From Thauera carbonicopians (lineage in GTDB: Bacteria; Pseudomonadota; Gammaproteobacteria; Burkholderiales; Rhodocyclaceae), in contig NZ_JANUXN010000003.1 in assembly GCF_025699485.1 (NCBI RefSeq), positions 310,001 to 374,000 of the forward strand: DNA of 64,000 nt, written 5' to 3'. The position numbers were made by a program, and so were the translations under genes. The notes under the pieces were generated by a model, which did not search any database, was not told the DNA's origin, and saw only the letters and a program-made list of their open reading frames with translations. How positions within the stretch are numbered: position 1 is the stretch's first letter; each line of letters starts with the position of its first letter. Positions 51,526 to 61,902 of the stretch are shown in pieces.

Positions 51526-54500
51526 GTGAATTCCGAAGCCGAAGCACCCGCCGCGCAAGAAGCCGATGCTCCCTCTGTCCGGCACCGCCTGCGTCCCTGG
51601 CGTCTGTTCGGTGCCGGGCTGTTCATCCTGGTATTGGTCGTACTGGTGGCAGGCGCCGTGCTGCTCGTCCACGAACTGCACAGCTCGCGCCTGCAGGCGC
51701 GCGAGATCTCGCGTTTCGCGGCGAAGCTCGACTACCAGCGCGTCGCCGGCCGCAGCGATGCGCTGCGCTACCCGACGCACGGCCCCTTCGACCAGCGCCT
51801 CGGCTACACTGAACTGCCGGATTTCATCGAACGGCTGCAGGCGCGCGGCTTCGACCTGGTGGCGCAGACCCGCTTCAGCCCCGAACTCATCGACTACGTC
51901 GATCGCGGCCTGTTTCCACCTTACCGCGAGAAGACCCGCGCCGGCCTCGACGTGCTCGACTGCCGCGGCGGACCGCTGTACGACTTCCGCTATCCGTATC
52001 GCGGTTATGCCGACTTCGCCGCCGTGCCGCCGGTGGTGGCGCAGGCCCTGCTGTTCATCGAGAACCGCGACTTGCTCGACGACAGCCGGCCGACGCTGAA
52101 CCCGGCGGTCGACTGGGTGCGCTTCGCGCGCGCGGCGGCGGCGCAACTGGGGCGCATGGTCAAGGAAGACCTCGACGCCCCCGGCGGCAGCACGCTGGCG
52201 ACGCAGATCGAGAAGTACCGCCACTCGCCCGATGGCATCACCGTCGATGCGCGCGAAAAGCTGCGCCAGATGGTGTCGGCCAGCGTGCGCGCCTACCGCG
52301 AAGGCGAACGGACCCTGCCGCTGCGGCAGCGGCTGGTGCTCGACTACCTGAACACCGTGCCCTTGTCGGCGGCGCCGGGGCATGGCGAAGTCAATGGCCT
52401 GGGCGACGGCCTGTGGGTGTGGTTCGGCGCCGATTTCGACCGCGTCAATGCGCTGCTGTCGGCGCCGTCGGGGCAGGGCGAGATCCTGCGTGAGCAAGGG
52501 CTGGCGCTGCGCCAGGTGGTGGCGCTGATGATCGCCCACCGCCGGCCGTCGTGGTACCTGGCGCGCGGCCGCGACGAACTGGTGCGCAGCACCGATGCCT
52601 ACCTGCGCCTGCTCGCCGAGGCCGGCACCATCGGCGCCGCGCTGCGCGATGCCGCGCTGTCGCAGCGACCGGTTTTCCGCGACCTGGCAGCCGATCCGGC
52701 GGTGCTGCCGGCCCGTCCGGGCAAGGGCACGACCGCGGTGCGCACGCGGCTGGCGGGCATGCTGGGTATTTCGCTGTACCGCCTGGACCGGCTCGATGCC
52801 GAAGTCGGCACGAGCTTGCACGGCGGCCTGCAGCAGGCGGTCGGCGACTATCTGGGCCGCCTGGCCGATGCGGATTTCGCCCGCAGCCAGGGGCTGGTCG
52901 GCGATCGCATGCTGAACCCGGCGACGCTCGGCGCCGTGCGCTACAGCTTCACCCTGGTCGAGCGCACGCCGGGCGGCAACCGCGTGCGGGTGCAGACCGA
53001 CACCTCCGACCAGTTGTTCGACATCAACGAAGGCAGCAAGCTCGAACTCGGCTCCACCGCCAAATTGCGCGTGCTGGCGACCTACCTGGAAATCGTCGCC
53101 GAACTGCACGGGCAACTGGCCGAGCTGGACATGCCGGCGCTGCGCCGGGTCGACGTCGCCCGCCAGGACAACCTGACGCGCTGGGCCATCGACCACCTCG
53201 CCACCGCCAGCGACCGCAGCCTGCCGGCGATGCTGGACGCGGCGCTGGAGCGGCGCTTCTCCGCCAGCCCGGGCGAAGGCTTCTTCACCGGCGGCGGGCT
53301 GCACAGCTTCGGCAACTTCAACCGCAGCGACGATGTGCGCATGCCGACACTGCGCGAAGCGCTGCAGGCGTCGATCAACCTGCCCTTCGTGCGGCTGATG
53401 CGCGAGATCGTGCGCCACACCATGTACCAGGTGCCGGGCAGCACCGCGCAACTGCTGGAGGACGCCCAGGATCCGCGTCGAGCCGAATACCTGGCGCGCT
53501 TCGCCGACCGCGAGGGCCAGGTCTTCCTGCGCCGCTTCTGGCGCAAGTACCAGGGCCTGGGCGCGGAAGACATGCGCGCGCTGTTGCTCGACGGCCTGCG
53601 TCCCGGCGCCGAACGCCTGGCCGCGGTGTTCCGCTATCTCGAACCCGATGCGCCGCCCGAGGCGCTCGCCGCCTTCCTCGGCCAGCGCCTGGGCGAGGCG
53701 CTGCCGACCGAATCGCGCATCGCCCGGCTCTACGGCCGCTACGCGCCGGAGGCTTTCGACCTGCCCGACCGCGGCTACGTCGCGCGCCTGCATCCGCTGG
53801 AGCTGTGGCTGGTCGGCTACCGCATGCGCAATCCGCAGGCGAGCCTGGGCGAAGCGATCGCCGCCAGCGAGGGCGAGCGCCAGGCGGTGTACCGCTGGCT
53901 GTTCCGCACCCGCTCGCGCAATGCGCAGGATTCGCGCATCTTCACGATGCTGGAAGTCGAAGCCTTCCTCGAGATCCACCGCCGCTGGGCGCGGCTGGGT
54001 TATCCCTTCGGCCATCTCGTGCCTTCGCTGGCCACCGCGCTCGGCAGTTCGGGCGACCGGCCGGCGGCGCTGGCCGAACTGATGGGCATCATCGTCAACG
54101 ACGGCCTGCGCCTGCCGATGCAGCGCATCGAGCGGATCGATTTTGCCGTCGATACGCCGTACGAAACCGCTTTCACGCTGCGCGCCGAGGACGGTGAGCG
54201 GGTGATGGCGCCGGAAGTGGCGGCGGCGCTGCGCAACGCGCTGTCCGACGTGGTCGAGAGCGGTACCGCGCGCCGGCTGGCGGGCAGCTTCCGCCTGGCC
54301 GACGGCAGCGAGCTGGCGTTGGGCGGCAAGACCGGCACCGGCGACAACCGCATCGTCATCGGCGGCCGCGCCGGCACCGCGCTGAATCGCACCGCGACTT
54401 TCGTCTTCTATCTCGGCCCGCGCCATTTCGGCACCTTGACCGCCTACGTCACCGGTCCCGGCGCCGCCGCCTATCGCTTCACCTCGGCGCTGCCGGTGCA

Positions 54501-54606
54501 GATCCTGAAGTCGATGGCGCCGGTGCTGGTGCCGCACTTGACGCCGGAGGCCGATGCAGGCTGCCTCCGTCCGCCGGCTTCGTCCATACCGGCTCCGCCC
54601 GCATGA
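51526..54606 (+). CDS. Class A penicillin-binding-protein-like peptidoglycan synthase (GT51 plus transpeptidase)
   Basis: The protein of about 1026 residues is anchored by one N-terminal helix (about 27-48) and has a GT51 glycosyltransferase domain with a catalytic-type glutamate in FIENRD (about 179) and GGSTLATQIEK (220-230). A transpeptidase domain follows with SxxK in GSTAKL (about 509), a SxN in SINLPF, and KTG in GGKTGTGDN (about 934). The sequence departs from classic PBP1A/1C, with long insertions between the SxN and KTG motifs. It would polymerise and cross-link murein in the periplasm. No ATG fits; I propose GTG at 51526. TTG at about 51464 is possible. It is divergent from the sulfate-binding gene. 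Confidence 0.82.
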   Translation: MNSEAEAPAAQEADAPSVRHRLRPWRLFGAGLFILVLVVLVAGAVLLVHELHSSRLQAREISRFAAKLDYQRVAGRSDALRYPTHGPFDQRLGYTELPDFIERLQARGFDLVAQTRFSPELIDYVDRGLFPPYREKTRAGLDVLDCRGGPLYDFRYPYRGYADFAAVPPVVAQALLFIENRDLLDDSRPTLNPAVDWVRFARAAAAQLGRMVKEDLDAPGGSTLATQIEKYRHSPDGITVDAREKLRQMVSASVRAYREGERTLPLRQRLVLDYLNTVPLSAAPGHGEVNGLGDGLWVWFGADFDRVNALLSAPSGQGEILREQGLALRQVVALMIAHRRPSWYLARGRDELVRSTDAYLRLLAEAGTIGAALRDAALSQRPVFRDLAADPAVLPARPGKGTTAVRTRLAGMLGISLYRLDRLDAEVGTSLHGGLQQAVGDYLGRLADADFARSQGLVGDRMLNPATLGAVRYSFTLVERTPGGNRVRVQTDTSDQLFDINEGSKLELGSTAKLRVLATYLEIVAELHGQLAELDMPALRRVDVARQDNLTRWAIDHLATASDRSLPAMLDAALERRFSASPGEGFFTGGGLHSFGNFNRSDDVRMPTLREALQASINLPFVRLMREIVRHTMYQVPGSTAQLLEDAQDPRRAEYLARFADREGQVFLRRFWRKYQGLGAEDMRALLLDGLRPGAERLAAVFRYLEPDAPPEALAAFLGQRLGEALPTESRIARLYGRYAPEAFDLPDRGYVARLHPLELWLVGYRMRNPQASLGEAIAASEGERQAVYRWLFRTRSRNAQDSRIFTMLEVEAFLEIHRRWARLGYPFGHLVPSLATALGSSGDRPAALAELMGIIVNDGLRLPMQRIERIDFAVDTPYETAFTLRAEDGERVMAPEVAAALRNALSDVVESGTARRLAGSFRLADGSELALGGKTGTGDNRIVIGGRAGTALNRTATFVFYLGPRHFGTLTAYVTGPGAAAYRFTSALPVQILKSMAPVLVPHLTPEADAGCLRPPASSIPAPPA

Positions 54607-54637
54607 GCGGGTAGTTTCTCGTCGTGTCCCCAAGTTG

Positions 54638-54668
54638 GGTACATCAGTCTGTGCCGATAAAAGGTACA
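54638..54668 (+). promoter_or_regulatory. Two GGTACA half-sites before the XRE gene
   Basis: GGTACAT at 54638-54644 and GGTACA at 54663-54668 lie directly upstream of the XRE gene, 25 bp apart; the second abuts its GTG start. The same half-site forms a palindrome upstream of the chemoreceptor gene. Confidence 0.4.
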
Positions 54669-54669
54669 G

Positions 54670-54936
54670 GTGACGAAAAGTATCCACACCCCGGAAATGT
54701 CGTGTCTGAACCGCTGGCTGCGCGAGAGGCGCAAGAGCCGGGGCCTGACCATGCGCGAACTCGGCGAGCGCCTGGGCGTCGCGCATTCCTACGTGCAGAA
54801 GGTCGAGTCCGGCGAGCGCCGGCTGGATGTGGTCGAATACATCTGGTACTGCAGGGCGCTCGACGCCGAGCCCGGCGAAGGCCTGGGCCTGGTGCTGAAG
54901 TGCGCCGAGAACATGCCGGAGTGGGGCAAGGAGTGA
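54670..54936 (+). CDS. XRE-family helix-turn-helix regulator
   Basis: The 88-residue protein is a single HTH domain: LNRWLRERRKSRGLTMRELGERLGVAHSYVQKVESGERRLDVVEYIWYCRALDAEPGEGL. I use the GTG at 54670 because AAAGG precedes it; an ATG at 54697 would also keep the domain. It lies between the PBP gene and the Aer-like receptor gene, all on the plus strand. GGTACA sites near its own start and before the receptor gene suggest autoregulation and control of the receptor, which is inferred. Confidence 0.85.
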   Translation: MTKSIHTPEMSCLNRWLRERRKSRGLTMRELGERLGVAHSYVQKVESGERRLDVVEYIWYCRALDAEPGEGLGLVLKCAENMPEWGKE

Positions 54937-55326
54937 GCTCCGCCCCGCCGGGGATGCACCGGACGGCAATTGAAGCCGTCGTTTTCTGCATGTCATGCGG
55001 GCCGCGTTGCCGTCGCCGACGGTTCCGCCCCGAAATGGGCAACTCCAAATGCCCGACAGGCGGTCCATCCCTTGTCACACGGGTAGCATCCATCCCGCAA
55101 ATCACTTGATCGACTCGATCGTGCGGTTTGTCACCGTGCCGGGCCTTTGGCACTGTTAATGTACCTGTTATGGGTACATTTTTTCAGTCCACGCAGGATC
55201 GTGTATCCGATCCGGCCAAAACAAGAATGAGGGAGGAGATGTCATGTGTGCAACGCATGTCCGTGCGGAAACGCCGTACGGTCCGGGAAGCAGGGAGGCC
55301 GTCGCGTATCGCGGCGGGGCGCTGGC
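54937..55326 (+). promoter_or_regulatory. Intergenic control region before the Aer-like receptor gene
   Basis: This 390-bp stretch has no supported gene. A perfect AATGTACC-N7-GGTACATT palindrome sits at 55158-55180, followed by a run of six T residues. It probably carries the promoter of the chemoreceptor gene and its operator. Confidence 0.5.
55158..55180. promoter_or_regulatory. Perfect GGTACA-type palindrome (candidate XRE operator)
   Basis: AATGTACC (55158-55165) and GGTACATT (55173-55180) are exact inverted repeats with a 7-base spacer. The half-site matches those before the XRE gene at 54638 and 54663. Confidence 0.5.
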
Positions 55327-56904
55327 ATGAGAACCAATCTGCCGGTGACCGACAGGGAGGTCAGCTATCCGCATGACGCCCACCTGATCACGACCACCGA
55401 CCTGCAAGGCGTGATCACCTTCGTCAATGATGATTTCATCGCGGTGTCGGGATTCAGCCGCGAGGAGCTGGTCGGCCAGCATCACAACGTCATCCGTCAT
55501 CCGGACATGCCGCCGGGCGCGTTCGCCGACCTGTGGGCGAGCATCAAATCCGGTCGTTCGTGGAAGGGCCTGGTCAAGAATCGCTGCAAGAACGGCGATT
55601 ACTACTGGGTGGATGCCTACGTGACGCCGATCGTGAAGGATGGTGTCGTCGTCGAGTACCAGTCGGTACGGACCCTGCCGTCGCCGGCGGCGAAGGCGCG
55701 TGCCGAGCGCGAGTATCGGCGCTGGCGAGCCGGCGGTACGCCAGCCGGTTCGCGGCCGCCGCTGTTGTCGCTGGCGACGAAGCTGGTGTCGGTGGCTGCC
55801 CTGCCGGGCCTGGCGGTGGCGGCGTTTGCGCTGTGGCGCGGCGAGTCGGTGCTGGCTGCCGCCGCGCTGCTGATGGCCGTGGCGGCGGGCGCATCCGCCG
55901 CGATGCTGCTGCAGCCCTTCCGCGCCATGGTGCGCGGCTTCCGCGGCGCGACCGGCCATCCGGCGCTCGCCTATCTGTACAGCGGCCGCAAGGACGAACT
56001 GGGCACGATCATGCAGTTGTTGCAGAGCCGGGCTTCCGAGATGCGCGCGATCGTCGCCCGTCTGAACAACTCCTGCCAGCTCATTTCGCATTCCAAGCAG
56101 AACGCCGACGCCTGCGTGGATGAGGCCAACCAGGCCGTTCAGGGGCAGGGCCAGGAAGTGGCGGAAATATCCCAGGCCATGACGCGCATGCTGGACAGCC
56201 AGCGCCAGGTCGCGGAAGCCTCGACACACACGGCGGAGGCGGCCGAGCAGTCGCGGCGTGCGACCGCGCAGGGGCGGGAGCAACTGGCGCAGATGATGGG
56301 GGCCATCGATCGCCTGGCATCCGGGCTGGAGGAAACGCGCAATACCGTCGGTGCGCTGGCCGAGCGCAGCAGCGACATCTCCAGGGTCATCGACGTCATC
56401 ACCGCGATCGCCGACCAGACGAATCTGCTGGCGCTCAATGCGGCGATCGAGGCTGCCCGTGCCGGCGAGGCGGGTCGCGGCTTCGCGGTCGTCGCCGACG
56501 AAGTGCGCAACCTGGCGCAGCGTACCCAGGATGCGACACGCGACATTCGCGAGATCATCTCGGGGTTGGTGGACGGCACCCAGGCGTGCGTGAGCGCGAT
56601 CGGCAGCGGCGTGGCGGTTTCACAGCAGACCGTGGATGTCGCCGGGCAGACCGACCGGGCTTTCGGCGTGATTCTGGAGTCGGTCGACAACATCAACCAA
56701 CTGGCGGGCAACGTCGATGCCGGGATGCGGGAGCAGTCCCTGATCAGCGAGCAGACCGGCCGGCAGATGGAAGTGCTGCGCAGCAGTGCGAACCAGGCGA
56801 TCGAGTCCAGCGCGACGTTCAGCGCACACACCGCCAGGTTGGGCGAGCACATCGCCAATCTGCGGGTGCTCGCCAGCCATTTCGCCAGCAGCCTGAGCCG
56901 CTGA
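55327..56904 (+). CDS. aer: Aer-like PAS-domain methyl-accepting chemotaxis protein
   Basis: The 525-residue receptor has an Aer-type PAS domain at residues 10-125 ([67 protein letters not shown]). Two hydrophobic segments at about 165-210 and a cytoplasmic signalling domain follow, with the conserved hairpin tip [44 protein letters not shown]. Aer senses redox state through FAD in PAS and directs energy taxis. It has no periplasmic domain, as expected. It precedes the DosP-like and cyclase genes by 30 bases, so energy taxis and c-di-GMP control are probably linked. Confidence 0.9.
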
Positions 56905-56934
56905 GCCGGTGCGCATGGCCGGAGAGAGCAGGGA

Positions 56935-59526
56935 ATGAGCGTGCCGGATGCGAGTGTGTACGGGATGCTGCTCCCGGCGCTCGAGCAGTCGATCATGGCG
57001 GCGGTGCTGGTCGATGAGAACAACTGCGTGCGCTATTTCAACCCCGCTGCCGAACGGCTGTGGGGTTATGCGCGCGAGGAAATCATCGACCGGGACATGC
57101 AGCCGCTGCTGCCGAAGGCGCTGCAGGCCGTTCATGGCAACTACATGCGCAGCAACCGGGAGGGCGGCAAGCCCCGGGCCGTCGGCATGAACCGCGACCT
57201 GCTGGTGGAGCGCAAGGATGGCCGGCGGCTGTGGGTGTCGTTCTCGCTGTCGAAGATCGACCTGTCGGGCCGCATCCACTACCTGGCCTTCGCGCGCGAC
57301 GTGTCGGACGAAGTGTCCCGGCGCGAGCAGAATCGCCTGCTGCTGCTGGCGGTCAACCATACCGAGCGTCCCTTGTTCGTCGTCGATGGCGAGCGCCGCA
57401 TCGTGCAGATCAACCGTGCTTTCAGCGATCTGTTCGGCTATGCCGCCGACGAGGCGATCGGCTGCTTGCCGAGTGAACTGCTGGCCAGCCCGCACACCGA
57501 TGCCGAGACGCTGGAGCGAGTACGCAGCAAGGCCCGGGAGGGCACGGAAGGATTCAACGAGGAGATCCTGGTCAGGAGCAAGGACGGCCGGGACATGTGG
57601 GTGAAGATTTCGGTCAACCCCGTCCTCGACGACGACAGCGGACAATTGCGCAACCAGGTCATTGCCATCTCCGACATCACCGAAGCACGGCGGATCAGGG
57701 ATCTCGAGCGCGACGTGCTGGAGGCCTTGACCAGCAACCTGTCCTTCACGGGGCTGGGCAACTTCATCTGCCAGCGCATCGAAGCCATTGCGCCGGGCGT
57801 GCTGGTCTCCGTGTTCAGGGTCGTCGGGCGCAGGCTGCGGCACTGGGCCGCGCCGAGCTTCCAGGCCTCGTACGCGGCCGGCTGGGATGACGTGGAGATC
57901 GGCGAAGGTGTGGCGGGCTACGGTAGCTGCGCCCATCGTGGCGAGCCGGTGATGCTGGCCGACATCAAGGCCGAACCGCTGCGCTCGGCCTACTGCGGGC
58001 GGATGCCGCCGGTCGGTTGCCGGGCGTGCATGGTCTATCCGGTCAAGCGGCGCGACGGCAGCGTGATCGGTATTTTCGCCCTCCATCTCCGCCAGGATTC
58101 CCCGCAGGACGCCTATCTGAGGCGGATTGCGGACGTCAGCATGTACCTGTGCGCGCTGGCGATCGAGCGCGAGGAAAGCCGGCAGCAGCTCGACCAGCTG
58201 GTCCACTACGACGCCCTGACCGGATTGCCGAACCGCAACAATCTATATCGCTACACCGACGATCTGCTGGCTTCCGGTGTGGAGCAGGAGGTTGCCTTCT
58301 TCTGCGTCGGGCTGGTCCGCTTCAAGGACATCAACAACTCCCTGGGCCATCGGGTGGGCGACCAGATGCTGGTCGAGATCGCCAATCGCCTGCGATCCCG
58401 CCTGAGCGGCGGTGCCTTCCTGGCGCGGCTCGAAGGCTGCACCTTTGTGCTGGTCGTTTCCGACTGCAGCCCATCCCGCGCCGCGCAGGTGGCTTCGCAG
58501 ATCCAGCAGGTCATCGGCGAACCGGTCGACATCGCCGGCGTGCTGCTGGATTTGTCGGCCTGCATCGGTGTCAGCCATTATCCCGACGAAGGCTGCCGCG
58601 ACCGCGATGGACTGCTGCAGAGTGCCAAGAGTGCGATGGACGAGGTCAAGGCGTCGAACGGTGGCGGCATCCTGTTCTTCGATACCGGCATGAACGAACT
58701 CGCGCGCGAGCGCCTGCTGCTCGGGACGGCGCTGCGCCGGGCCGTCGCCGGGGCCGGCCTGCGCCTGGTGTACCAGCCGCAGGTGCGTGCGGAGGACGGC
58801 GAACTGTACGGCGTGGAGGCGCTGGCGCGCTGGCACGACGACAATTTCGGCGAGATCCCGCCCGGCAGGATGATCGCGCTGGCCGAGGAGATCGGCGAGA
58901 TCGAGGCCATCGGGCACTGGGCCCTGCGCGAAGCCTGTCGGCAGATGGCGGCGTGGCGCGACCAGGGCGTGAACGTGCCCGTGGTGTCGGTCAATCTGTC
59001 GCCGCGCAGCTTCCGCAGCCGCGCGCTGCCGGATTTCGTCGCCGGGCTGCTGCAGGAATACGCGTTGATTGGCGAAAGCCTGACCATCGAGATCACCGAG
59101 AGCGCGGCGATGGTGCTGACCCCGGAAATGCTGGAGATCGTGCATGGCATCCGCGCGCTGGGCGTGGGCCTGTCGGTGGATGATTTCGGCACCGGCTTCT
59201 CCAGCCTGTCCAATCTGGCCAGCCTGCCGGTGACGGAGGTCAAGATCGACCGCAGCTTCATCGACAGATGCCTGCAGGAGAGCCGCCTGCAGGCGCTGGT
59301 GACGGCGGTCATCGGCATCGGCCGCAGCCTGAACCTGACGGTCGTTGCCGAAGGCGTGGAAACCGTGGGGCAATGCGAACTGCTCAGGCGGCAGTGCTGC
59401 CCGGTCGTCCAGGGCTACCTGTTCTCCCGCCCGCTCAGCCCCCAGGACATTCCCTCGTGGCTCGAACGCTTCCGGGCCGCCGCGGCGTCGGGCGTCGTGG
59501 AGGCTTGCCCGGGGATGGGCGGATGA
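56935..59526 (+). CDS. dosP: DosP-like heme-PAS c-di-GMP phosphodiesterase (PAS-PAS-GAF-GGDEF-EAL)
   Basis: The 863-residue protein is closely similar along its whole length to E. coli DosP, the direct oxygen sensor. PAS1 (about 10-125) has PALEQSIMAAVLVDENN, FNPAAERLWGYAREEI, and both heme ligands: H67 in AVHGNYMRSNREGG and M85 in VGMNRDL. PAS2 follows (about 135-260), then a GAF-like part and a GGDEF domain whose motif is degenerate (EGCTF, about 500), as in DosP. The EAL domain is intact: VEALARW, SVNLSPRSF, EITES, VDDFGTGFSSL, VKIDRSF, VAEGVET and VQGYLFSRPL. Oxygen or CO binding to heme should raise hydrolysis of c-di-GMP. Confidence 0.93.
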   Translation: MSVPDASVYGMLLPALEQSIMAAVLVDENNCVRYFNPAAERLWGYAREEIIDRDMQPLLPKALQAVHGNYMRSNREGGKPRAVGMNRDLLVERKDGRRLWVSFSLSKIDLSGRIHYLAFARDVSDEVSRREQNRLLLLAVNHTERPLFVVDGERRIVQINRAFSDLFGYAADEAIGCLPSELLASPHTDAETLERVRSKAREGTEGFNEEILVRSKDGRDMWVKISVNPVLDDDSGQLRNQVIAISDITEARRIRDLERDVLEALTSNLSFTGLGNFICQRIEAIAPGVLVSVFRVVGRRLRHWAAPSFQASYAAGWDDVEIGEGVAGYGSCAHRGEPVMLADIKAEPLRSAYCGRMPPVGCRACMVYPVKRRDGSVIGIFALHLRQDSPQDAYLRRIADVSMYLCALAIEREESRQQLDQLVHYDALTGLPNRNNLYRYTDDLLASGVEQEVAFFCVGLVRFKDINNSLGHRVGDQMLVEIANRLRSRLSGGAFLARLEGCTFVLVVSDCSPSRAAQVASQIQQVIGEPVDIAGVLLDLSACIGVSHYPDEGCRDRDGLLQSAKSAMDEVKASNGGGILFFDTGMNELARERLLLGTALRRAVAGAGLRLVYQPQVRAEDGELYGVEALARWHDDNFGEIPPGRMIALAEEIGEIEAIGHWALREACRQMAAWRDQGVNVPVVSVNLSPRSFRSRALPDFVAGLLQEYALIGESLTIEITESAAMVLTPEMLEIVHGIRALGVGLSVDDFGTGFSSLSNLASLPVTEVKIDRSFIDRCLQESRLQALVTAVIGIGRSLNLTVVAEGVETVGQCELLRRQCCPVVQGYLFSRPLSPQDIPSWLERFRAAAASGVVEACPGMGG

Positions 59527-60518
59527 AATTTCTGCCGGATGCGCTGTTCACCCGCATTCTCGAAGCGCTGCCCGTCGCCGTCGTGGTGGCGACCATGCCC
59601 GATGCCCGGATCCGCTACAGCAACCATGCTTTCGACAGCCTGCTGGGTCACCCGTCCGGCCACTTCAGGTCAGCGCGGCAACTGATCGCGAGCGCCTGCG
59701 TCCATGAGCGGCAGAAGGCCTTGCTGCGGCAGCACTGGGATATGTCCCTGTGGCGCCGGGATGCCGAGGGCGTGAGCGTCGTGCCGGACATCGAGATCGA
59801 CATCCGCGGTGGCGATGGCCAGGTTCGCACGGCGCTGCATTGCGGCCTGATCCTGCACGAGCAGAGGCTGGCCGTCGCCATCTGCAAGGACATCACGAGG
59901 CTGAAGCGCGACAGCCTGCTGTTCAAGGAATTCGCCTTTCTCGACCCGCTCACCGGCATCGCCAACCGGCGGGGCCTGGAGGAGCACTGGCGCGACGCGA
60001 CCTCCGGTCCGCAGCAGCGGCGCCTGGCTTTCCTGATGCTGGATCTGGATGGCTTCAAGCCGATCAACGACACCCACGGCCACTTGGTGGGCGATGCCGT
60101 GCTGTGCACGGTGGCGAAGCGCCTGAAGCGGGTGGTGCGCGGTTCCGACCTGGTGTGCAGGCTCGGCGGGGACGAATTCGGCCTGCTGCTCGATGTGCCG
60201 GGAAAGCTCGAGCGGATGGACGACATCTGTCAGCGCATCGTCGACCTGGTCGGCGAACCCATCGTCCTGGCGGACCGGACGGTCCATGTCACCACGAGCA
60301 TGGGCGCCTGCATTTATCCCGAGCAGGCGGCGGATTTGCATCAACTGCTGCAGCGGGCCGATCTCGCGCTGTACGCGATCAAGAAATCGCGCAAGGGGCA
60401 GTGGCGGTGGTGGGCGCCCACCCACGAAGGGGCGGCGGAGTGGCTGTTGTCCAAGGACGACGCTCCGCTCCGCCTGCCCGGCGTCGGCCTCAGTGCCCGC
60501 CCAGTGCCAGGGGATTGA
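59523..60518 (+). CDS. PAS-GGDEF diguanylate cyclase
   Basis: The 331-residue protein has an N-terminal PAS-like domain (residues 10-125, ending VAICKDITRLKRD) and a GGDEF domain with FLDPLTGIANRRGLEEHW, LMLDLDGFKPINDTHGHLVGDAVL and the intact LGGDEF motif at about 215-219. An RGSD inhibitory-site motif lies five residues before GGDEF, so product feedback is expected. Its ATG overlaps the dosP stop as ATGA, so cyclase and phosphodiesterase are made together, as in the E. coli dosCP pair, but with a PAS sensor instead of a globin and in reverse order. Its last 29 bases overlap the opposite-strand gene. Confidence 0.92.
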   Translation: MKFLPDALFTRILEALPVAVVVATMPDARIRYSNHAFDSLLGHPSGHFRSARQLIASACVHERQKALLRQHWDMSLWRRDAEGVSVVPDIEIDIRGGDGQVRTALHCGLILHEQRLAVAICKDITRLKRDSLLFKEFAFLDPLTGIANRRGLEEHWRDATSGPQQRRLAFLMLDLDGFKPINDTHGHLVGDAVLCTVAKRLKRVVRGSDLVCRLGGDEFGLLLDVPGKLERMDDICQRIVDLVGEPIVLADRTVHVTTSMGACIYPEQAADLHQLLQRADLALYAIKKSRKGQWRWWAPTHEGAAEWLLSKDDAPLRLPGVGLSARPVPGD

Positions 60519-61902
60519 AGGGCTTGCCGTTGACCGTCAACTGGCCCTGGCGGAAGGCCGCCTGGGTCTTGACGATGCCGCCGTTGCGCTGCAGATAGCC
60601 TTGCGCTTCCAGCGCGCCGAGCTGGGCGTCGAGTTGTGCCGCCGCGAATGCCGCTTCGTCCTCGTTTTCGGCCTGGCTGGTGCCGAAGGCCAGCAACAGG
60701 GCCTGCGGCACCGACAGGTCGGCCGCCGCCTGCAGCCTGGCGATCAGCATCATCGGATTGGCCAGTTCTTCGGGCTGCAGGCCGTCGAGCCTGACTTGTG
60801 CCGACAGGTCGGTCTTGCCGTGCGGGCTGGTGAAGCTGATACGGTCGATGCTGAACGCCGGGTTGTGGCCCAGCAAGGCCATGGCGGGCTCGGCCAGCGG
60901 AGCGAAGATTGCCGTGGGGTCTTCGGCCTGGGCTGCAAGTGCCGTGGGGTCGGAGCCGATCTCGACCAGCTTGCGCCAGAGCTCGACCAGGGTGCGTCCG
61001 TGCAGGTGCGTGAGCGAAAAGTCATAGTGCGCGGGGCCGTAGTCGGCATCGCCGATGCGCAACACTTCCGTGCCGATCAGTGCCTTGACGTCGACGTAGT
61101 CGCCCTCGGCTGGAGCGTCGATGTCGTAGCTCATGCGCTCGAGCTGGAAGGCCATGCCGTCGAGCTCGCTGTCTTCCTTGCCGCTGACGTCCATCGACGC
61201 CACTGTCGCGCGCTGCCTGCCGACATGCAGCCAGGGCTCGTCGTCGAACAGGCGGCGCTGGTCGCCGTCGAAGCTCAGCCCGGACAGCGTGATGCGCATG
61301 TTGGGGTCTTCCATCGACATGCTTTCCGCCGTGCCCTTGGTGGTGTAGCTGCGCAGGCCGGCGCTGAAGGCGACGTCCGCCTTCAGCCCGCCGAGGCTGA
61401 TGCGCAGTTCGTTGCCGGTGCCGTCGGGCATGCCGAATTCCAGTGCGGGGCTGTCGACCGCCGAGCGGCCGCTGCCGTCGAACTGGAACACCGTGCGGGC
61501 CGTCAGCGGTGCCCTGCCATTCAGCGCCGCTGCCAGCCTCTCGCCCTGTTCGCCGTCGATCACGAGCTCGGTGTCCATCGTCGCTGCGGCCAGCGTCGAC
61601 AAGCCCGGCAGCGGGCCGTGCTCGATCCGGTTGATGGCATGCATGCGGAACGGCTCGCCCGCCTGCAGCGTGCCGTCTTCGGCGACGAGCGGCATCGCCA
61701 TCTCGAAGCTGACTTTCTCGGTGCTGGAGAACAGGCCGCGCTCGTAGCTGCGTTCGGCGATCTTCAGCGTGGGGTGCGACTGCATCTCGGCGTACTGCTC
61801 ATCCAGGATGGTCTGGATCTTCTGGCCGGCAAACCATGCGGCGGCGGGGTAGCTCAGGGCGATCACGGCCAGCGCGGCTGCGATCTTGGTGGGGCGGTTC
61901 AT
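60490..61902 (-). CDS. DUF945/YdgA family protein
   Basis: The 470-residue protein has a short cytoplasmic end, one N-terminal membrane or signal segment (IAAALAVIALSYPAAAWFAG), and a long periplasmic beta-rich domain typical of YdgA/DUF945: QTILDEQYAEMQSHPTLKIAERSYERGLFSSTEKVSFEM, INRIEHGPLPG, LTHLHGRTLVELWRK and the C-terminal LTVNGKPFNPLAL. The family has no clear function. Its 3' end overlaps that of the cyclase gene by 29 bases in convergent orientation. Confidence 0.85.
   Translation of the reverse strand: MNRPTKIAAALAVIALSYPAAAWFAGQKIQTILDEQYAEMQSHPTLKIAERSYERGLFSSTEKVSFEMAMPLVAEDGTLQAGEPFRMHAINRIEHGPLPGLSTLAAATMDTELVIDGEQGERLAAALNGRAPLTARTVFQFDGSGRSAVDSPALEFGMPDGTGNELRISLGGLKADVAFSAGLRSYTTKGTAESMSMEDPNMRITLSGLSFDGDQRRLFDDEPWLHVGRQRATVASMDVSGKEDSELDGMAFQLERMSYDIDAPAEGDYVDVKALIGTEVLRIGDADYGPAHYDFSLTHLHGRTLVELWRKLVEIGSDPTALAAQAEDPTAIFAPLAEPAMALLGHNPAFSIDRISFTSPHGKTDLSAQVRLDGLQPEELANPMMLIARLQAAADLSVPQALLLAFGTSQAENEDEAAFAAAQLDAQLGALEAQGYLQRNGGIVKTQAAFRQGQLTVNGKPFNPLALGGH

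Follow-up and report, generated by a model that had tools for sequence, protein, structure and literature searches.

A DosP ortholog of Thauera is encoded between an Aer-like chemoreceptor gene and a PAS-GGDEF cyclase gene

In Escherichia coli, the gene for the phosphodiesterase DosP lies downstream of the gene for a globin-coupled cyclase, DosC (the pair is also named YddV-YddU or DgcO-PdeO). A preliminary description of a 64,000-nucleotide stretch of Thauera carbonicopians DNA (contig NZ_JANUXN010000003.1, positions 310,001 to 374,000; hereafter the window, from a genome of 4.5 Mb in 48 contigs, G000) reported a DosP homologue coupled to a PAS-GGDEF protein instead. This raises the question of whether the Thauera protein is a true DosP and, if so, what kind of system it belongs to. 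We conclude that it is a genuine DosP ortholog, an assignment that is solid at the level of sequence. We also consider it fairly likely that its gene belongs to a probable three-gene unit (aer-dosP-dgc), in which a DosP activated by oxygen would oppose a PAS-GGDEF cyclase.

The Thauera protein scored 1142.2 bits against the NCBIfam DosP equivalog model NF008467 (curated cut-off 857) over residues 8–847, and matched full-length E. coli DosP in the Protein Data Bank (PDB; 9cdr) with E = 1.4e-231. The match runs from end to end (795 aligned residues, 46% identical), with gaps in the GAF domain, where 56 Thauera residues stand against 13 in E. coli. PAS1 is 50% identical to its E. coli counterpart over 129 residues (phmmer to 1v9y, 1.3e-42). 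H67 and M85, proposed earlier as heme ligands, align with E. coli H77 and M95, and R87 aligns with R97 (E. coli numbers were taken as the annotated position plus 8); the inactive GGDEF motif (EGCTF) and the intact EAL motif described before were likewise found in the alignment. By comparison with E. coli DosP, PAS1 is most likely a heme-binding domain with H67 as the proximal ligand. Of 12 positions taken to form the E. coli heme pocket, 10 have identical residues in the window protein; M95, R97, and F113 are named in titles cited by PMC4263535, and positions 65 and 68 carry little weight, as the letters expected there disagreed with the E. coli sequence.

To place the protein among its relatives, we ran DosP profile searches (E up to 1e-150), which returned 4 places in 29 genomes of the genus, 15 in 199 of the family, 18 in 399 of the order, and 14 in 398 of the phylum. 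These samples overlap and amount to 44 distinct places; at most 23 (genus), 4 (family), 2 (order), and 2 (phylum) candidates were scored per genome, so that weaker second copies may be missed. Among the candidates scored, only the window protein, two other Thauera proteins (G003, G006), and an enterobacterial one (G767) exceeded the DosP cut-off, together with the E. coli control. Thirty of the 44 places, E. coli DosP, and one neighbouring paralog were aligned (32 sequences), and none of the 14 places outside the alignment (8 from the order search, 6 from the family search) reaches the cut-off. Met at position 85 was found in five sequences (the window, the two Thauera, E. coli, and G767), and the degenerate GGDEF motif in the same five and no others; EAL was kept in all 32, and His and Arg were both present in 11. 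The five Met-ligand sequences form a single clade with support 1.000. The score above the cut-off, the shared Met ligand and degenerate GGDEF, and this clade are the reasons why we call the window protein an ortholog and not merely DosP-like. DosP-like proteins elsewhere were considered as equivalents and rejected, since the GGDEF-type motif is intact and the Met ligand absent in 27 of the 32.

The GAF domain adds an indication of the order of events. The stretch at window protein positions 313–368 holds 56 residues in the three Thauera proteins and 13 in the two enterobacterial DosPs; among the other 27 sequences it holds 55 or 56 residues in 26 and 49 in one. Across these 32 sequences, the distribution suggests that the Met ligand and the loss of GGDEF preceded erosion of the GAF domain in enterobacteria. 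Recent transfer from enterobacteria was judged unlikely, given the 46% identity and the different GAF domain. When 197 genomes of the order of G767 were searched (E up to 1e-230), only G767 itself matched, and a plasmid search (E up to 1e-80) returned 14 rhizobial records at 32–35% identity and 5 from Escherichia, of which one carries the annotation dosP.

Other DosP-like loci were also noted. At L100:4395-8643 and L101:4392-8640, the proteins keep His and Arg and have Ser at the Met position, and each gene is followed, 55 bases on, by one whose product has a GGDEF domain (Pfam gives MASE2-GGDEF-PAS_7 for L100). L057:5962-11443 contains a tandem pair of DosP-like genes, the first with His at the distal Met position.

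The three Thauera genes lie head-to-tail on the forward strand (Table 1), with 30 bases between the receptor gene and dosP, and with the stop codon of dosP and the start codon of the cyclase gene sharing an ATGA overlap. The earlier account of the partner as an ATGA-coupled PAS-GGDEF protein with an RxxD site agrees with these data, the PAS domain being below the Pfam cut-offs (PAS_8, 20.6 bits against 21.8; PAS, 19.7 against 22.6). The contrast with a globin-coupled DosC in the reverse gene order was also borne out, as dosC is upstream of dosP in E. coli and the cyclase gene is downstream in the window. No globin family appeared among the Pfam matches of the cyclase at E up to 0.001, and a search of the window genome with the protoglobin family PF11563 (E up to 0.01) gave no match; 10 of 14 control genomes matched, 8 of them above the cut-off. 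Among the open reading frames (ORFs) matched at the fetched flanks, a DosC-type globin cyclase stood beside a DosP-like gene only in E. coli and G767. Other DosP-like loci have a GGDEF protein encoded directly upstream (L052 and L053; Pfam on L052) or a MASE2-GGDEF protein downstream (L062, L100, and L101; Pfam on L062 and L100).

Table 1. Positions in the window of the aer-dosP-dgc genes, their domains and motifs, and a nearby hairpin match
Feature	Position	Strand	Basis or remark
Terminator-like hairpin upstream of unit	55158..55180	+	pattern match only
Aer-like PAS methyl-accepting chemotaxis protein, 525 aa	55327..56904	+	Pfam PAS_3, MCPsignal; PDB Aer matches
dosP, PAS-PAS-GAF-GGDEF(degenerate)-EAL phosphodiesterase, 863 aa	56935..59526	+	NF008467, PDB 9cdr
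PAS1, predicted heme domain, aa 1-130	56935..57324	+	similarity to E. coli DosP PAS1
Codon of H67, predicted proximal heme ligand (E. coli H77)	57133..57135	+	alignment
Codon of M85, predicted distal heme ligand (E. coli M95)	57187..57189	+	alignment
Codon of R87, predicted O2-binding Arg (E. coli R97)	57193..57195	+	alignment
PAS2, about aa 140-253	57352..57693	+	Pfam PAS and PAS_4
GAF domain, aa 270-411	57742..58167	+	Pfam GAF_2, 35.9 bits
EGCTF, degenerate GGDEF motif, aa 500-504	58432..58446	+	alignment
EAL motif, intact, aa 628-630	58816..58824	+	alignment
ATGA start/stop overlap	59523..59526	+	present also in T. butanivorans, absent in T. linaloolentis
PAS-GGDEF diguanylate cyclase (predicted), 331 aa	59523..60518	+	Pfam GGDEF (149.9 bits); sub-threshold PAS
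RGSD, predicted inhibitory site (RxxD), aa 206-209	60138..60149	+	sequence
GGDEF active-site motif of cyclase, aa 215-219	60165..60179	+	sequence

The first gene of the trio, the full GAF domain, and published operons with a phosphodiesterase gene before a cyclase gene go beyond the preliminary description. The receptor joins an Aer-like PAS domain to a methyl-accepting signalling domain and matched Aer in the PDB (31cj, 5e-59, residues 27–499; Aer PAS 8dik, 1e-36); its start was set at the ATG matching the T. linaloolentis start. It probably binds flavin adenine dinucleotide (FAD). Co-transcription of the three genes is probable, with the receptor gene as the probable first gene. Receptors 35–58% identical to it occur in ten further Thauera genomes and also elsewhere in the three genomes that carry the trio.

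Conservation of the trio was examined in 29 Thauera genomes. A DosP above the cut-off, the cyclase N-terminus, and a receptor of at least 78% identity co-occur in the same three genomes, those of the window, T. butanivorans (best-segment identity 92% at the locus), and T. linaloolentis (87%), always between the PBP-like and DUF945 genes. In three other Thauera, the DUF945 gene is present without orthologs of the trio, and two of these three have other chemoreceptor or GGDEF genes nearby. Ratios of nonsynonymous to synonymous substitution rates (dN/dS) between the window and T. butanivorans were 0.18 for dosP, 0.30 for the cyclase gene, and 0.17 for the receptor gene; dosP gave 0.26 against T. 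linaloolentis.

Among the 29 Thauera genomes, residues 1–167 of the cyclase matched at 85% in T. butanivorans and 51% (partial) in T. linaloolentis, and six further weak matches in five other Thauera genomes (E from 2e-7 to 1e-6) were to larger proteins; 300 genomes of the order gave one further match at E up to 1e-8. When 369 genomes of the class were searched with a profile of the PAS domain (E up to 1e-5), 16 matched, counting the window genome, and the best relatives outside Thauera were the PAS-GGDEF proteins L093:7670-8590 and L123:7142-8083. Against solved structures, the profile gave nothing significant, and no ligand or cofactor could be read from the sequence; an AlphaFold model from a two-sequence alignment (mean predicted local distance difference test score 33) was discarded as unusable. 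The PAS region also matched 11 Agrobacterium or Allorhizobium plasmid records at 32–37% identity; cyclase-related proteins sit on conjugative Agrobacterium plasmids.

We propose that aer-dosP-dgc works as follows, the DosP steps being modelled on the E. coli protein. In gas-free Fe(II) PAS1, heme would be held on H67 with M85 as the sixth ligand; oxygen would displace M85 and be held by R87, raising EAL activity and lowering cyclic dimeric guanosine monophosphate (c-di-GMP). The cyclase encoded by the overlapping gene would be the opposing source of c-di-GMP, limiting itself at the RxxD site, and its PAS domain may read another cue (flavin redox, heme, or temperature) or may be mainly a dimerisation part. 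With oxygen present, the phosphodiesterase would dominate and cells would be motile; with oxygen absent, the cyclase would dominate and cells would be sessile. Swimming would be guided by redox through the unit's Aer-like receptor, probably an FAD protein. The preliminary description went further in proposing the same on/off logic as in the E. coli pair, which is not established. E. coli DosP and DosC are both described as activated by oxygen (PMC8846402), and the reference logic is therefore not a simple on/off opposition. The two systems are alike in the His and Met ligands, R97, the degenerate GGDEF, the EAL motif, and the adjacent cyclase gene; the Thauera system differs in that a PAS domain takes the place of the globin in the cyclase, the phosphodiesterase gene comes first, the GAF domain is full, and an Aer-like receptor gene lies upstream.

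Other published systems also share features with this locus. For every cdg operon of Komagataeibacter, a review places pdeA 'above' dgc, a wording that we take to mean upstream (PMC6559022), and these operons are patchily conserved (PMC6528568); the window shows the same type of order, with the phosphodiesterase gene directly followed by the cyclase gene through the ATGA overlap, a likeness by gene order and description. Komagataeibacter (Acetobacter) xylinus has a heme-PAS phosphodiesterase, AxPDEA1, and an FAD-PAS cyclase, AxDGC2 (PMC6559022, PMC8846402). Judging by their numbers, however, these two come from different cdg operons, whereas the window pair adjoins, and AxPDEA1 is inhibited by oxygen (PMC8846402), whereas DosP is activated. 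In Kosakonia, PAS-GGDEF cyclases are encoded near a PAS-GGDEF(degenerate)-EAL phosphodiesterase, again alike by description; the cyclase KoBdcA and the phosphodiesterase KoBpdA bind hemin and respond oppositely to oxygen (PMC13141831). Unlike those of the window, the Kosakonia genes adjoin a cellulose operon, and the phosphodiesterase is more active at low oxygen, opposite to DosP-type activation (PMC13141831). The cyclase itself resembles, by description, Pseudomonas aeruginosa TdcA, a heat-sensing two-domain PAS-GGDEF protein of 342 residues that has an I-site, shows neither a heme nor a flavin spectrum, and is of the Pfam PAS_3 class and encoded in a locus of heat resistance context; a Gallionellales homolog behaves like TdcA (PMC8012707). 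The likeness lies in the layout without a third domain, the similar length, and the I-site. Among the papers listed from the open-licence literature, judged by titles and abstract openings, we found none on this locus. The parts and the gene order thus have published precedents, and the exact pairing of DosP with a PAS-GGDEF cyclase, for which we found none, is new as a modest variation.

Alternative readings differ mainly in what they make of the cyclase. Its PAS domain could be a second oxygen or redox sensor, holding heme or FAD, so that both halves of the pair respond to oxygen; we regard this as possible, though doubtful. Its best structure match, a non-significant one, was the Nitrogen fixation regulatory protein 2gj3, which we take to be the FAD-binding NifL PAS; it points in this direction, but at E = 0.022 over only 44 profile positions. 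The linkage of the cyclase gene to two sensor genes, Aer-like and DosP, argues for a second sensor as well. It also has precedents in KoBdcA/KoBpdA (PMC13141831) and AxPDEA1/AxDGC2 (PMC6559022, PMC8846402), but KoBdcB, the cyclase numbered next to the Kosakonia phosphodiesterase, does not bind hemin (PMC13141831). The PAS domain is moreover weakly constrained, with a dN/dS of 0.43 against T. butanivorans, which makes it the least constrained domain and tells against both a second sensor and our own proposal. Alternatively, the domain may sense temperature, as a TdcA-like thermoPAS, or nothing at all, as a structural part, in which case oxygen would control breakdown and synthesis would be independent of oxygen. 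TdcA offers a precedent in layout, length, and lack of a heme or flavin spectrum (PMC8012707), and no dosP was found among the neighbouring ORFs inspected at the best PAS relatives, L093 and L123. TdcA is, however, a PAS_3 protein, and the window cyclase gave no PAS_3 match at E up to 0.001, only the sub-threshold PAS_8 and PAS; we consider this reading unlikely.

The cyclase could also be a dispensable hitchhiker, in which case DosP would act on c-di-GMP produced by the genome's other GGDEF proteins. Searching the window genome with DosP gave 35 matches, DosP itself among them; many fall in the GGDEF/EAL region and some are confined to PAS. The T. linaloolentis cyclase gene (L009:8558-9055) carries an out-of-frame internal deletion that removes GGDEF while dosP is intact, which means that coupling of dosP to the cyclase is not obligatory. 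Against dispensability, both the window and T. butanivorans retain the ATGA overlap and intact catalytic motifs, and the cyclase GGDEF domain has a dN/dS of 0.21; we hold such a role to be quite improbable. The T. linaloolentis deletion, found in a draft assembly, nevertheless counts against the proposed unit, as do several other observations. The receptor of the same draft has an in-frame internal deletion, with about 100 residues missing, and the trio is rare, at three of 29 Thauera genomes. A search for a sigma-70-like promoter in 54500–60700 found none, and there was no FNR-like match between 54093 and 58320, hence none just upstream of the trio. In the heme pocket, two positions differ from E. 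coli: D40 is replaced by N (N30) in the window and by N in T. butanivorans (T. linaloolentis keeps D), and the Ile found at position 65 in E. coli gives way to Met in all three Thauera. With these points included, the unit in which an oxygen-activated DosP opposes the cyclase is still the reading that we favour.

Surrounding features were recorded as well. FNR-like sites with at most two mismatches numbered 17 in the whole window against 7.4 expected, a count reached in 0 of 100 shuffles; they are scattered, with one inside dosP and two inside the cyclase gene. Terminator-like hairpin matches in 54500–60700, among them the one in Table 1, numbered 5 against 2.8 expected by chance, and an Rfam scan of 54500–61000 gave no match. 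The PBP-like gene (Pfam) lies upstream, and the DUF945 gene, an MFS transporter gene, and a rhodanese gene lie downstream, facing the trio. In both relatives, an opposite-strand chemoreceptor gene stands between the cyclase and DUF945 genes (L010:9555-11639, L009:9045-11090), and none stands there in the window; the L010 copy has HAMP and PDC/Cache by Pfam.

Thauera thus offers a DosP outside enterobacteria with the full set of heme ligands, a complete GAF domain, and no globin partner, and this can separate features intrinsic to DosP from those that depend on DosC. It also suggests an order of changes toward E. coli DosP, with the Met ligand and loss of GGDEF first and GAF erosion later. Thauera are denitrifiers of low-oxygen habitats. 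Somewhat speculatively, and as a rather unlikely extension, aer, dosP, and dgc may in a few Thauera be inherited as one oxygen/redox decision cassette in a single operon, with a cyclase cue that is possibly not a gas. If so, flavin-guided swimming, heme-guided c-di-GMP breakdown, and a differently cued PAS cyclase would be combined, and one transcript would set both swimming direction and settling time. For Thauera, the locus offers a way to test whether oxygen is linked to swimming and surface growth.

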